Assembly (NCBI RefSeq): GCF_014873535.1
Contig: NZ_JADBEF010000001.1
Span: forward strand, 3,906,001-3,970,000
Direction: 5' to 3'
DNA length: 64,000 nucleotides
DNA from: Nonomuraea africana
GTDB taxonomy: Bacteria; Actinomycetota; Actinomycetes; Streptosporangiales; Streptosporangiaceae
Shown here: positions 15,838-21,775 of the stretch, piece by piece
Position numbering within the stretch: the stretch's first letter is position 1
Layout: each line of letters begins with the position of its first letter
Position numbers and translations under genes: made by a program
The notes under the pieces: generated by a model
What the model saw: only the letters and a program-made list of their open reading frames with translations
Told to the model about the DNA's origin: nothing
Databases searched by the model: none

Positions 15838-16671
15838 TCAGCGGGGGTCGGGGTCGGCCGCGGCACGGGCCGCGAAGATCTCCTGCGCCTTGGCGGTGAC
15901 CGGCCCCGGCGCGGACGGCAGGACGGTGCCGTCGACCAGGCGGATCGGCTGGATGTCGCGGGTCGTGGAGGTGAGGAACGCCTCGTCGGCCTCGTAGAGC
16001 GCCGCCAGCGGCACGTCGGCCTCCTCGCCGCCGCACCACTCCAGCGTCAGCGCGCGCGTGACACCCGCCAGGCAGCCGGACGCCAGGGTCGGGGTGATCA
16101 GCCTGCCGCCCTGGACCAGGAAGACGTTGGAGCCGGTGCCCTCGCAGAGGTTACCGGCCAGGTTCTCGAAGATGGCCTCGCCACCGCCGCGGGCCTTGGC
16201 GAAGGCCAGCGCCTTGGCGTTGTCGCCGTACGACGTCGACTTGACCCCGGCCAGCGCCCCGCGCTCATTGCGCGGCCACGGAACCACGGTCACGTCGGCG
16301 GTGAGCGGGAAGGGCGCCTGCTCGCCCACGATGACGATCGCGGTGGCGCCCTCGTTGCCCCGGTCGGAGCCGAGCGGGCCGGGCCCGCTGGTGTAGGTGA
16401 TGCGGATGCGGCCGAGCGGCCAGGCGGGGGCCGCGGCCAGGCAGCGGCGCACGCCGTCGGCGATGGCGTCGAGGTCGGGCTCGGGCAGGTCCATGCGCTG
16501 GGCCGACAGCTTGAGCCGGTCGAGGTGCCTGGTGAGCGCGAACGACTGGCCGCCCACGGCCTTGACGGTCTCGAACACGCCGTCGCCGACCATCAGCCCG
16601 TGGTCGAACACCGAGACGGTGGCCTGCGCCGGATCCAGCAGTTCCCCGTTGACCCAGACGGGAACGTTCAT
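15838..16671 (-). CDS. pabC: Aminodeoxychorismate lyase (class IV aminotransferase)
   Basis: A 277-residue PLP enzyme of the branched-chain aminotransferase / ADC-lyase fold: N-terminal VWVNGELLDPAQATVSVFDHGLMVGDGVFETVK, the Schiff-base Lys in GVKSTSYGDN, and cofactor-binding NLCEGTGSNVF. Its ATG 16671 overlaps the pabB stop by 4 nt (ATGA) and has AGGAGGA upstream. Together with PabB it makes p-aminobenzoate from aminodeoxychorismate for folate. D-amino-acid or branched-chain aminotransferase activity is the alternative, but the pabB overlap favours PabC. Confidence 0.88.
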   Translation of the reverse strand: MNVPVWVNGELLDPAQATVSVFDHGLMVGDGVFETVKAVGGQSFALTRHLDRLKLSAQRMDLPEPDLDAIADGVRRCLAAAPAWPLGRIRITYTSGPGPLGSDRGNEGATAIVIVGEQAPFPLTADVTVVPWPRNERGALAGVKSTSYGDNAKALAFAKARGGGEAIFENLAGNLCEGTGSNVFLVQGGRLITPTLASGCLAGVTRALTLEWCGGEEADVPLAALYEADEAFLTSTTRDIQPIRLVDGTVLPSAPGPVTAKAQEIFAARAAADPDPR

Positions 16672-17663
16672 CGATTTCCTCCTGAGGATGCCAAAGTGAT
16701 GAGCCGCGACGCCTTCAGCTCGGTTTCGCGCCACTCGCGGCGAGGGTCGCTGCCCCAGGTGATGCCCGCTCCTGTGCCGAAGCGGATCTCCCCGGCGGTG
16801 ATCCAGAACGTGCGGATCCCGACGGCCAGCGCCGCCGTGCGCCGGTCGGCGTCGACCCAGCCCACCGCCCCACAGTACGGCCCTCGCGGCTCGGGTTCGA
16901 GCTCATTGATGATGCGCAGGGCCGAAGATTTCGGAGCTCCGGTGACCGAGCCGGGCGGGAAGGTGGCGGCGAACAACTCGGACCAGCCCATCCCCTCGGC
17001 CAGCCTGGCCCTGACGGTCGAGACCAGGTGCACCGAGCCCGGGTAGTCCTCCACCTCGCAGAGCGAGGGGACGGTGACCGAGCCCACCTCGGCGACCCTG
17101 CCCAGGTCGTTGCGGACCAGGTCGACGATCATGACGTTCTCGGCGTAGTCCTTGTCGAGCAGGTCGTCGGCGGTGACGCCGGTGCCCTTGATCGGCCTGG
17201 ACTCCACCACGTCGCCGTCGCGCGAGAGGTAGAGCTCGGGCGAGGCCGACACGACGCTCGTGCCCGGTACGTCGATGACGGCCGCGTACGCGGCGGGGTT
17301 GCCCTGCCTGAGCCGGTGCGCCAGGGCCAGCGGGTCGGCGCCGGACGGCAGCGGCGCCGACAGGACGCGGCAGAGGTTGGCCTGGTAGACCTCGCCCTGC
17401 TCGATGTAGTCGCGGATGCGCTGGACGCCGCGCTCGTAGGCGGCCTGGTCGAGCGAGCTGCGCCACTCGCCCGGCCCGATCCACGGGCCCGACTTGGGCA
17501 GCGGCGCGGGCCGTACGTCGTCGAAGCGCGCGCACGTCACCTTGCCCTCGTAGTCGACCACGACCGCCCACCAGCCCGCGCTGTCGAGCGCGGCCAGATC
17601 GGTCGTGAGATCACGGAGCCTGGTCGCCAGGAGCCCCCCGACATGGGCGAAACTGTCGTGCAC
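16668..17663 (-). CDS. pabB: Aminodeoxychorismate synthase component I
   Basis: A 331-residue chorismate-binding enzyme. The catalytic motif PIKGTG (the Lys specific to PabB), VRNDLGRVAEVGSV, and FPPGSVTGAPK are all present, and the C-terminus has the GAGITWGSDPRREWRET block. It is shorter than E. coli PabB because the N-terminal extension is missing, as in many actinobacterial copies. No PabA amidotransferase is adjacent; TrpG or a distant PabA must supply ammonia. GTG 17663 lies 4 nt after the LysR stop, so lysR-pabB-pabC may be one transcript. Confidence 0.88.
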   Translation of the reverse strand: MHDSFAHVGGLLATRLRDLTTDLAALDSAGWWAVVVDYEGKVTCARFDDVRPAPLPKSGPWIGPGEWRSSLDQAAYERGVQRIRDYIEQGEVYQANLCRVLSAPLPSGADPLALAHRLRQGNPAAYAAVIDVPGTSVVSASPELYLSRDGDVVESRPIKGTGVTADDLLDKDYAENVMIVDLVRNDLGRVAEVGSVTVPSLCEVEDYPGSVHLVSTVRARLAEGMGWSELFAATFPPGSVTGAPKSSALRIINELEPEPRGPYCGAVGWVDADRRTAALAVGIRTFWITAGEIRFGTGAGITWGSDPRREWRETELKASRLITLASSGGNR

Positions 17664-17667
17664 GACC

Positions 17668-18537
17668 CTATTGTCCCAGTAGTTCGACGAACGCGAGCGC
17701 GGACGGCAGCGGCACCTCGGGCAGCGCCGCGTAGACAGTCCTGCGCGGCCCCTCCTCGGAGATCGGCCGGAGCACCACGTCGTCGGGCACGGCGCGGGCG
17801 GCGAGCTCGGGCACCAGCGTCACCCCGAGGCCCGCGGCCACGTAGCCGAACTTGCCGGTCCACTCGGCCACGCGCAGCCCGCCGCGCGGGGTGAACCCCG
17901 CCCGCGCGCAGGCCGCCTGCAGGATCGTCGGCTGACCTCGTGGAGCCGCCTCGATCCATGTCTCCCGCGCCAGGTCGCGCAGGTCGATCACCTCGCGGTC
18001 GGCGAGACGGTGCCCCTGGGGCAGCGCCACCAGCAGCCGCTCCTCCAGCAGCCGCACGGTCTCGGCCGCCACGGGCAGCCCCGCGGGGTAGTCGCTGACC
18101 ACGGCCACGTCGAGGGCCCCGGCGTGGAGCCGGTCGAGCAGACGTCCCGTCAGCCCCTCGGCCAGGCGCAGTTCGACCTCGGGCCGCCTGGCCTTGAACG
18201 CCTTCAGCGCCTGCGGCACCAGCCACACGTTCGCGGTGGCGAACGCGCCGATCCGCAGCGTGCCCCCACCGCCCCGGTGGATGGCGGCCAGCTCCTCCTC
18301 CGCCTTGTCGAGACGGTCGAGGACGGCCTCCGCGTGCCTGCGCAGGGCGGCGCCGGCGGGGGTGAGCCTGACGCCCCTGGCCAGACGCACGAACAGCGGC
18401 CCTCCCGCCTCTTTCTCCAGCGCGGCGATGCGCCTGGACACCGCGGACTGCGTGTAACCGAGCAGCTCGGCGGCGGCGGTGAAGGACCCTTCGCGGGCGA
18501 CCTCGTGGAACAGTCGCAAATCATTCGTATCTAGCAT
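17668..18537 (-). CDS. LysR-family transcriptional regulator
   Basis: A 289-residue LysR protein: the winged helix-turn-helix at 1-60 (LRLFHEVAREGSFTAAAELLGYTQSAVSRRIAALE) is canonical, followed by two periplasmic-binding-like subdomains from about 88. It is divergent from the dehydrogenase-RidA fusion gene, with 57 nt between start codons, the usual LysR arrangement, and a palindrome lies at its own start. It most likely controls the fusion gene and possibly the pab genes behind it. The co-inducer is unknown. Confidence 0.92.
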   Translation of the reverse strand: MLDTNDLRLFHEVAREGSFTAAAELLGYTQSAVSRRIAALEKEAGGPLFVRLARGVRLTPAGAALRRHAEAVLDRLDKAEEELAAIHRGGGGTLRIGAFATANVWLVPQALKAFKARRPEVELRLAEGLTGRLLDRLHAGALDVAVVSDYPAGLPVAAETVRLLEERLLVALPQGHRLADREVIDLRDLARETWIEAAPRGQPTILQAACARAGFTPRGGLRVAEWTGKFGYVAAGLGVTLVPELAARAVPDDVVLRPISEEGPRRTVYAALPEVPLPSALAFVELLGQ

Positions 18538-18548
18538 GGCTGGTATGC
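18534..18548. promoter_or_regulatory. Candidate LysR operator
   Basis: GCAT-N7-ATGC is a perfect dyad overlapping the LysR start codon, in the divergent region with the fusion gene. Position fits autoregulation. The classical T-N11-A core is not clear. Confidence 0.3.
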
Positions 18549-18594: not shown

Positions 18595-19917
18595 GTGATT
18601 GCATTTCTCGGACAGGGACGCATGGGCGTCCCCATGGCTCGGCGACTCGTGGAGGCCGGGCATGAGGTGAAGGTGTGGCGGCGCGGCCTCGGCCCGGTCA
18701 GCTCGGCGGTGGAGGGCGCGGACCTGGTCATCACCATGCTGCGCGACGGACCCGCGGTCGAGGAGGTGCTGCGGCAGGCGCTTCCCGGGCTGCGGCCGGG
18801 GGCGACGGTGGTGGAGATGTCCACGATCGGGCCCGAGGCGGTGCTGGCGCTGCGCGAGCTGCTGCCGTCCTCCGTGGGCCTCGTGGACGCGCCGGTGCTG
18901 GGCAGCGTCGGCCCCGCCGCCGACGGCACCCTGACGGTGCTGGCGGGCGGCGACCTGACGGCGTGCCGGTCGGTGCTGTCCGTCTTCGGGACGGTGCGCG
19001 AGCTCGGGGCGCTGGGGGCGGGCGCCGCGCTGAAGGTGGCGGTGATGGGCGCGCTGGTGCCCGCCCAGGTGCTGCTGGCGGAGACTTTCGCGTACGGCGA
19101 GGCGCACGGGGTCAGCCGGTCGGCGCTGGCCGAGGTGCTGGAGGGGACGCCACTGGGGGTGCTGGCCGCTCGGGTGGCGGCGCCCGCAGAGGAGACGCGG
19201 TACGCGCTGGGGTTGGCGGCGAAGGATGTGCGGCTGGGTGCTTGGGAGGGGGCGACGATGGCCCGGGCCGCGAGCGCCCGCCTGGAGTCCGCCGAGGCGT
19301 CGGGCTACGGGGATCACGACGTGACGTCGATCGCCACCCACATCGCCGACTCCCCCACCCCGGCGTCCTCCTCCTCCGGAGACACCGGGACTTCGGGCTC
19401 GCCTGCCTCAGGAGACAGCGGCTCATCGGAAGGCTCGGTTTCTTCCGGCGACGTCGGGGCTTCGGGAGGTGCCGTCTCCTCGGGTGGGACGGAGGCTTCC
19501 GGGGGGGCGGTTTCCCCCAGGGGTTCCGGGAGCAGGGCGGTGCGGGTCAATCCGGGGAGCGTGCCTGCCACCAACGGGTTCTACTCGCACGCCGTCCGGG
19601 TCGGGGACATGCTCTACGTCTCGGGTCAGGCCGCCTTCGACGAGCGGGGCGCCGTGGTCGGTGAGGGCGACATGACGACGCAGGCGGAGGTGGTCTTCCA
19701 GAACATCGGCAAGATCCTCGCCGACCAGGGTGCGGACTTCGCCGACATCGCCTTCATCAGGACCTACCTGACGGACCTGGACCTGCGGATGGAGTACGGC
19801 GCGGTGCGCAGGAAGTACCTCACGGGACCTCCGCCCGCCAGCACGACCGTGGAGGTGTCGAAGCTCTTCATGCCCGGGTTGCTGCTGGAGGTGGACCTGA
19901 TCGTCGCCCTGCCTTGA
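18595..19917 (+). CDS. Fusion of a 3-hydroxyisobutyrate dehydrogenase-like domain with a RidA domain
   Basis: A 440-residue protein. Residues 1-250 are a beta-hydroxyacid dehydrogenase: Rossmann loop AFLGQGRMGVPMA, substrate-binding DAPVLGSV, and catalytic Lys in LGAGAALKVAVMG. Residues about 258-312 are a Ser/Gly/Ala linker with repeats (SSGD, GASGGAVSS, EASGGAVS). Residues about 315-440 are a RidA/YjgF domain (NGFYSHAVRVGDMLYVSGQ, FIRTYLTDL, LLLEVDLIVAL). The usual RidA Arg in PARST is Ser (PPASTT), so imine deaminase activity is doubtful. GTG 18595 is chosen because the family starts just before the Rossmann strand; GTG 18559 is possible. Divergent from a LysR gene. Confidence 0.85.
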   Translation: MIAFLGQGRMGVPMARRLVEAGHEVKVWRRGLGPVSSAVEGADLVITMLRDGPAVEEVLRQALPGLRPGATVVEMSTIGPEAVLALRELLPSSVGLVDAPVLGSVGPAADGTLTVLAGGDLTACRSVLSVFGTVRELGALGAGAALKVAVMGALVPAQVLLAETFAYGEAHGVSRSALAEVLEGTPLGVLAARVAAPAEETRYALGLAAKDVRLGAWEGATMARAASARLESAEASGYGDHDVTSIATHIADSPTPASSSSGDTGTSGSPASGDSGSSEGSVSSGDVGASGGAVSSGGTEASGGAVSPRGSGSRAVRVNPGSVPATNGFYSHAVRVGDMLYVSGQAAFDERGAVVGEGDMTTQAEVVFQNIGKILADQGADFADIAFIRTYLTDLDLRMEYGAVRRKYLTGPPPASTTVEVSKLFMPGLLLEVDLIVALP

Positions 19918-20224: not shown

Positions 20225-21775
20225 TCAGGCCAGGGGGCCGGTGACGGACTCCGCGGTGGTGACGATGGTGCCGTCGGCGACCAGGCGGACCACGGACTCG
20301 ATCTCGGGTGCGAGGAAGCGGTCGGGCCCCGGGCCCGCCACGCTGTCCCTCAGCGCGCCGACCACCGCGCCCGTCGCCGGTGCGGGCTGGAGCGGGGCGC
20401 GCAGGTCGATGGCGCGTGCGGCGGTCAGGATCTCGATCGCCAGCACCCTGGTCAGGCCGTCCACCGAGCGGCGCAGCTTGCGGGCGGCCGACCAGCCCAT
20501 GGAGACGTGGTCCTCCTGCATGGCCGAGCTCGGGATCGAGTCGACGCTCGCCGGGGCCGCCAGGCGCTTCATCTCGGAGACGATGGCCGCCTGGGTGTAC
20601 TGGGCGATCATGTGTCCCGAGTCGACGCCGGGGTCGTCGGCGAGGAACGCGGGCAGCCCGTGGTTGCGGGCCACGTCGAGGAAGCGGTCGGTCCTGCGCT
20701 CGGACATGGAGGCCACGTCGGCGGCGACGATGCCCAGGAAGTCGAGCACGTAGGCGACGGGCGCGCCGTGGAAGTTGCCGTTGGACTCGACGCGTCCGTC
20801 GGCGAGGACGGCGGGGTTGTCGACGGCGGAGGCCAGCTCCCAGGTGGCGACGTTGGCCGCGTGGGCGACGGTGTCGCGGGCGGCTCCGGCCACCTGCGGG
20901 GCGCAGCGCAACGAGTAGGCGTCCTGGACGCGGGTGCAGGCGTTGGGGTCGCGGTGGCTCTCCATGATGCCGGAGTCCTTGAGGACACGGACCATGTTCG
21001 CCGCGGCCAGCGCCTGGCCCGGCTGGGGACGCAGGGCCTGCAGTTCGGGGGCGAAGACGCGGTCGGTGCCGAGCAGCGCCTCCACGCTCATGGCGGCGCT
21101 GATGTCGGCGGTCTTGAGCAGCCTGGTCAGGTCGTCGATGGCGAGGATGAGCATGCCGAGCATGCCGTCGGTGCCGTTGATGAGGGCGAGACCCTCCTTG
21201 GCGGCCAGCTCGACGGGCTCGAGTCCGGCCTGCTTGAGCGCCTCGGCCGACGGCCCGATATTTCCGGACTTATCCCTCACGACGCCTTCGCCCATCAGGG
21301 TCAGGGCGACGTGCGCGAGCGGGGCGAGGTCTCCCGAACAGCCCAGGCTGCCGTATTCGTGGACGACAGGGGTGATGTGCGCGTTCAGCAGGCCCGCCAT
21401 GGCCTTGGCGGTCGTCGGGCGGATGCCCGTGTGCCCGGTGGCCAGCGTGTGCAGGCGCAGCAGCATGAGCGCGCGCACCACCTCGGTCTCCACCTCGGGC
21501 CCGCTTCCGGCCGCGTGCGAGCGCACCAGCGAGCGCTGGAGCTGGGCGCGCAGTTCGGGGTCGATGTGCCTGGTGGCCAGCGCGCCGAACCCGGTCGAGA
21601 CGCCGTAGGCCGGGACCGGGCTCTCGGCCAGCTCGTCGATCCGCTGGCGCGCGGCGGAGATCGCCGCCATCGCGTCGTCGGTGAGGTGTACGGCGGCGCC
21701 GTGTCGGGCCACTTGGATGACGTCCTCGAAGCTCAACGGCTCCGGTCCTACGTTCACGACTGCGTTGTCGCGCAT
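20225..21775 (-). CDS. hutH: Histidine ammonia-lyase
   Basis: A 516-residue aromatic amino-acid lyase. The MIO prosthetic group forms from Cys146-Ser147-Gly148 in GSLGCSGDLAPL (many family members have Ala-Ser-Gly). The catalytic Tyr lies in YGVSTGFG near 57, and the C-terminal SSAMQEDHVSMG block is typical of HutH rather than phenylalanine ammonia-lyase. It deaminates L-histidine to urocanate. hutU, hutI and hutG are not in the window, which is common in actinomycetes where hut genes are scattered. Confidence 0.95.
   Translation of the reverse strand: MRDNAVVNVGPEPLSFEDVIQVARHGAAVHLTDDAMAAISAARQRIDELAESPVPAYGVSTGFGALATRHIDPELRAQLQRSLVRSHAAGSGPEVETEVVRALMLLRLHTLATGHTGIRPTTAKAMAGLLNAHITPVVHEYGSLGCSGDLAPLAHVALTLMGEGVVRDKSGNIGPSAEALKQAGLEPVELAAKEGLALINGTDGMLGMLILAIDDLTRLLKTADISAAMSVEALLGTDRVFAPELQALRPQPGQALAAANMVRVLKDSGIMESHRDPNACTRVQDAYSLRCAPQVAGAARDTVAHAANVATWELASAVDNPAVLADGRVESNGNFHGAPVAYVLDFLGIVAADVASMSERRTDRFLDVARNHGLPAFLADDPGVDSGHMIAQYTQAAIVSEMKRLAAPASVDSIPSSAMQEDHVSMGWSAARKLRRSVDGLTRVLAIEILTAARAIDLRAPLQPAPATGAVVGALRDSVAGPGPDRFLAPEIESVVRLVADGTIVTTAESVTGPLA

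Follow-up and report, generated by a model that had tools for sequence, protein, structure and literature searches.

The window analysed here, a stretch of 64,000 nucleotides from the 9.7 Mb genome of Nonomuraea africana, contains a single uninterrupted open reading frame at 18595-19917 on the forward strand. It encodes 440 residues comprising a β-hydroxyacid dehydrogenase domain (DH; 18595-19362, residues 1-256), a disordered Ser/Gly/Ala-rich linker (19363-19533, residues 257-313) and a RidA (Ribonuc_L-PSP) domain (19543-19914, residues ~317-440). A gene for a LysR-type regulator (17668-18537, reverse strand; Pfam HTH_1 and LysR_substrate) diverges from the fusion gene and starts 57 bases from it. 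Also on the reverse strand are genes for a PabB-like chorismate-binding enzyme (16668-17663) and a class IV aminotransferase of the aminodeoxychorismate lyase-like or branched-chain type (15838-16734, putative start), both identified from Pfam and NCBIfam and by conserved synteny. Convergent with the fusion gene is a gene for histidine ammonia-lyase, HutH (20225-21775, reverse strand), with an NCBIfam match above the cut-off and conserved synteny.

Both domains were assigned from Pfam matches and tabulated residues, together with AlphaFold and VIA-align for DH and a profile match for RidA; the linker was delimited by low pLDDT, length variation between species and a lower GC3. Pfam identified NAD_binding_2 (PF03446) at residues 2-133 (E 5e-23) and Ribonuc_L-PSP (PF01042) at residues 324-438 (E 4e-24). 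The match to NAD_binding_11 (PF14833) at 141-247 is weak (17 bits, cut-off 30). The AlphaFold monomer, built with 46 homologues, shows two confident domains, and residues 257-313 between them have pLDDT <50. The GTG start at 18595 aligns with ATG or GTG starts of relatives. The nearest relative among those found is N. dietziae (88% identity for DH, 93% for RidA), and the comparison with it indicates purifying selection on both halves (dN/dS 0.27 for DH, 0.16 for RidA).

Among the 80 best matches of a scan covering one genome per species, 77 have DH and RidA together in a single open frame. The 77 include a locus with an internal deletion (L112), and one of the other three (L144) is truncated by the end of its contig. 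The low complexity of the linker and its shifted codon-position GC pattern could indicate a missed stop or frameshift there, in which case two genes would be present, but dozens of independent assemblies keep the junction in the same open frame. This refutes a sequencing artefact for the family and leaves it a negligible probability here. The locus therefore holds one genuine gene for a 3-hydroxyisobutyrate-dehydrogenase-like enzyme joined to a RidA fold without the key catalytic Arg. The original prediction of a single-chain fusion is thus borne out by the open frame, Pfam, AlphaFold and the same-frame matches. That prediction had proposed searching other genomes for the same domain order, and would have been undermined by homologues always encoded as two genes. 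The order was found in many genera, and most close homologues are fused, though separate pairs exist. In L112 (Nonomuraea turkmeniaca; the same locus as L021), the linker and the start of RidA are missing through an in-frame deletion; the shortened fused frame that remains is probably a decayed copy. Further fusions at three other RidA genes of the same genome as the window (L002, L004 and L007) were rejected, as the extensions of their long frames look by eye like non-coding frame rather than a second domain; frame length alone was therefore not accepted as proof of fusion elsewhere.

Alignment to N. dietziae defines an inter-domain stretch of 66 residues, with 21 Ser, 16 Gly and 8 Ala, and linker GC3 is low (0.76 versus 0.93). 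The earlier estimate of about 55 linker residues agrees with the disordered core at 257-313. Across 82 distinct fused proteins the linker has 14-87 residues (median 18), and by the same counting it has 71 residues in the window protein and 19 in N. dietziae; these lengths start after the last DH helix motif and so slightly exceed the 66 of the alignment. Long linkers evolved several times, each with different repeats. Tandem Repeats Finder reported no array in the linker of the window protein, where a motif of 12-13 residues in two copies can be seen by eye. Given this hypervariability and the differing repeats of the long versions, the Ser/Gly run is a recent local expansion. With length drifting so widely among the fused proteins, a long Ser/Gly linker does not belong to the conserved design of the fusion.

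The DH half has the expected fold, with a Rossmann part and a helical C-terminal domain, and pLDDT is >90 over most of it. Its best structural match is NADP+-bound γ-hydroxybutyrate dehydrogenase (VIA-align to 3pdu: Z 31.8, 252 residues, rmsd 1.5). The catalytic Lys147 (GxGxxxKxxxN) is invariant in fused homologues, and a KD motif occurs at residues 210-211. Enzymes of the GLYR / γ-hydroxybutyrate dehydrogenase type (3pdu, 3pef, AtGLYR1, MtHIBADH) share with residues 1-256 the full fold, the catalytic Lys, KD and the dinucleotide motif GxGxMG. Unlike them, the fusion protein has DAPVLGS in place of the family motif DAPVSGG (Ser to Leu), Met151 instead of the family's Asn, a C-terminal RidA domain and, in Nonomuraea, a shorter segment after β2. 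Fold and Lys place DH in the β-hydroxyacid dehydrogenase superfamily, and we do not file it as an acid dehydrogenase with a known substrate.

Imine reductases are more distant structural matches (Z about 23). Their Rossmann half superposes on that of DH, and both lack the Asn of β-hydroxyacid dehydrogenases, but DH retains the catalytic Lys, a position taken by Asp or Tyr in imine reductases. An imine reductase identity was rejected on Lys147, the position of DH in the tree and the motif. Two paralogues in the same genome, L164 and L169, cluster apart from DH. These are imine-reductase-like and have the Lys replaced (GLASLYDLALL, with Asp in a YD motif, and GLAALFYQIGM, respectively).

In the β-hydroxyacid dehydrogenase family, the Ser of DAPVSG and the Asn of KxxxN contact the carboxylate of the substrate. 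The Streptosporangiaceae form of DH has Leu for this Ser and Met for this Asn (Ile in L126), and this loss suggests a shared substrate without the usual carboxylate. Most Actinomadura rows keep both the Ser (as SGS) and the Asn, so the argument covers only one of the two forms. Use of NADP(H) is indicated by the NADP+-bound best structural match and by an NRT motif retained in most members outside Nonomuraea. The Nonomuraea proteins have RRG in place of NRT and a shortened segment after β2, and thus their cofactor use is less certain.

For the RidA half, fold and sequence both indicate the RidA subfamily: in addition to the Pfam match, profile comparison ranks RidA/YabJ structures highest, with 1x25 first (E 2e-27). 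Like archetypal members (YabJ, ST0811 and TdcF of the RidA/YjgF/UK114 family), it has the conserved active-site Tyr17 and Glu120, kept across the set apart from a Phe for Tyr in two unfused rows. Unlike them, it is attached to an oxidoreductase and has Ser at the position of E. coli Arg105 (motif PASTTVEV), confirming the replacement predicted for the key Arg. Ser occupies this position in every fused member and in the unfused ones nearby, and Cys107 is replaced by Thr in nearly all of them (Ser in one). Because unfused relatives also have Ser, the change predates the fusion and is no consequence of it. Characterised RidA proteins need this Arg to hydrolyse imines and lose nearly all of that activity when it is replaced (PMC4433059); natural proteins with Ser there make up about 10% of the RidA subfamily (Niehaus et al., 2015; PMC4433059). 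The loss of Arg argues against ordinary imine-deaminase chemistry, and on these residues we do not file the RidA half as an imine deaminase.

The RidA half could be a non-catalytic trimerisation module that multimerises DH, leaving the chemistry to DH alone. The replacement of Arg105 in every member, the change at Cys107 and a variable N88 position fit such a scaffold, as do a linker free to vary in length and the occurrence of LysR with DH but without RidA. We nevertheless consider it rather unlikely, given that Tyr17, Glu120 and the PxSTTVEV motif are strongly conserved even in unfused RidA without an adjoining DH, which suggests a pocket under selection, and that RidA evolves more slowly than DH. 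The only PADLOC match in the search was that of the RidA domain to PD-T4-2_B, a phage-defence protein whose C-terminal part matches residues 322-439 and so seems to be RidA-like itself. As the match is limited to the RidA domain, there is no sign in it of a role in phage defence.

Fused loci were identified in Nonomuraea, Thermoactinospora, Streptosporangium, Microbispora, Microtetraspora, Planobispora, Planotetraspora, Planomonospora, Sphaerisporangium, Sphaerimonospora and Actinomadura. This type of RidA was found in 160 of 345 order-level genomes (E <1e-20), compared with 19 of 395 in a class-wide draw (E <1e-22), mostly from the same family. By this sampling, the fusion is established in one actinomycete family (in the wide sense, including Actinomadura) and rare elsewhere.

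Several loci hold partial or rearranged sets. Other genera, and one further family, have DH and RidA as adjacent, unfused genes accompanied by a divergent LysR (L063, L064, L070, L076 and L171). Four loci have RidA and LysR without DH (L058, L059, L065 and L069), two Microbispora genomes (G123 and G124) have LysR and DH without RidA, one genome (G136) has LysR alone at the locus, and DH is found without LysR or RidA in L155 and L156. Some Nonomuraea genomes have lost the module. In one (L187 in G034) pabB directly adjoins hutH and the whole LysR-fusion module is gone; in another (L185 in G020) the tails of RidA and LysR form a scar between pabB and hutH. DH and RidA therefore travel together, and these partial sets and losses show that neither is obligate for the other.

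The fusion likely arose twice. In the RidA tree the fused Actinomadura group falls among unfused RidA, and a single clade of all fused rows is rejected by the AU test (p 0.009). The DH tree points in the same direction, with one fused clade not significantly rejected (p 0.09), and the placement of LysR also differs (divergent in Streptosporangiaceae; convergent and downstream in Actinomadura). All 11 fused Actinomadura genes of the scan (L146-L154, L157 and L158) have a Shine-Dalgarno sequence (AGGAG or AAGGA) and an in-frame ATG at the RidA start, so that the gene may yield both fused and free RidA. No conserved internal RidA start was found in Streptosporangiaceae. In the window gene, GGGAG precedes an in-frame GTG by 7 nt, a feature absent from N. 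dietziae.

The retained start signals in Actinomadura are also what would be expected if co-regulated neighbours had simply been joined by stop loss, with a tether that contributes nothing. Freely drifting linkers are consistent with this, as are three loci of one genus (L048, L066 and L067) in which separate DH and RidA genes lie at the same locus inside the fused clade and share a GTGA stop/start overlap; these pairs look like fission. Retention of the fusion across at least ten genera and its probable double origin weigh against neutrality, which we regard as a rather unlikely explanation.

In those fused Streptosporangiaceae loci that were examined, the divergent LysR gene is the neighbour of the fusion gene and a conserved partner of the module. 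Where the flank was long enough, the order in nearly all loci of this family (Nonomuraea, Streptosporangium, Microbispora, Planobispora and other genera) is class IV aminotransferase and pabB, divergent LysR, DH-RidA and convergent hutH. Two conserved elements lie in the 57-base gap between LysR and the fusion gene, the dyad GCAT-N7-ATGC and a second core, and both also occur in distant unfused loci. The dyad, at 18534-18548 and overlapping the LysR start codon, was identified in an intergenic alignment of 72 loci and is a candidate LysR operator. Exact 4-7-4 dyads of any kind are present in 47 of the 72 loci, whereas shuffling predicts 20; the stronger argument for an operator is the conservation of the specific GCAT-N7-ATGC core. 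In Actinomadura the pabB/hutH neighbourhood is absent, and thus PabB, the aminotransferase and HutH are probably bystanders outside the function.

The PLP-enzyme and ammonia-lyase genes nearby could be seen as support for a role in control of metabolite damage, in which the tethered RidA would immediately hydrolyse a reactive imine, enamine or aldehyde that DH makes or meets, using Ser and Thr in place of Arg. This is close to the original suggestion that RidA binds or channels the product or an imine intermediate of the dehydrogenase. The RidA half shares its fold with imine deaminases, and a partial parallel exists in the DauA system of P. aeruginosa. DauA is FAD-dependent and is a separate protein from its RidA partner, which is of the Arg type; the fusion, by contrast, is NAD(P)-type, one chain and carries a Ser-type RidA. 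RidA proteins are reported to accelerate this amine-oxidising dehydrogenase by hydrolysing its product, so that there too a RidA protein cooperates with a dehydrogenase (PMC5619798). Opposed to damage control are the essential role of Arg in characterised RidA proteins (PMC4433059), the fact that imines are not normal products of β-hydroxyacid dehydrogenases, and the absence of the pabB/hutH neighbourhood in Actinomadura, which is therefore not function-defining. We consider this role quite unlikely.

The explanation that we favour, tentatively and with somewhat less than even confidence, is a LysR-controlled bifunctional polypeptide that tethers an oxidoreductase of β-hydroxyacid-dehydrogenase type to an Arg-less RidA for one non-standard substrate. 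DH would be probably NADP(H)-using, and the RidA half would form its usual trimer, thereby gathering DH units. A single small compound, which DH produces or uses up, would be the target of both halves, and the RidA pocket would handle the product or an intermediate without the clamp that imine deaminases form between Arg and carboxylate. LysR would induce the fusion gene when that compound accumulates. LysR, DH and RidA recur in different loci as fused, adjacent or rearranged sets. The pairing of the two families stands as originally proposed, and their functional coupling is supported comparatively, because several lineages have the two domains either fused or encoded side by side, next to one type of LysR. 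An unlikely and more far-reaching reading is a family-wide two-step enzyme with a reaction as yet assigned to neither family, in which the altered DH would act on a carboxylate-less substrate and the Arg-less RidA would be a true second active site.

No published DH-RidA fusion was found in the open-access literature, which is weak evidence of absence. This is a new combination of two well-known families, and it is widespread and conserved among the genomes compared. Arg-less Rid proteins are without a settled function, and the attached enzyme, regulator and candidate operator provide a direct handle on the role of RidA; the DH substrate and the LysR inducer are both screenable. Given its family-wide retention and probable double origin, the fusion links the two protein families in the manner of a Rosetta stone.

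Two loci, each in another genome, encode an unfused DH, a Ser-type RidA and a methyltransferase-like protein, beside an ATP-grasp ligase in L061 and an NRPS A-PCP gene in L062. These contexts hint at amino-acid-derived intermediates. The regions involved (L061:1078-4644 and L062:2265-6702) resemble small biosynthetic gene clusters, and a gene that by eye is threonine-dehydratase-like ends L062. At another locus (L057:4060-6891), a Ser-type RidA without DH or LysR lies beside genes for an extradiol-dioxygenase-like protein and, by eye, an aldehyde dehydrogenase, where degradation of aromatic compounds is possible.
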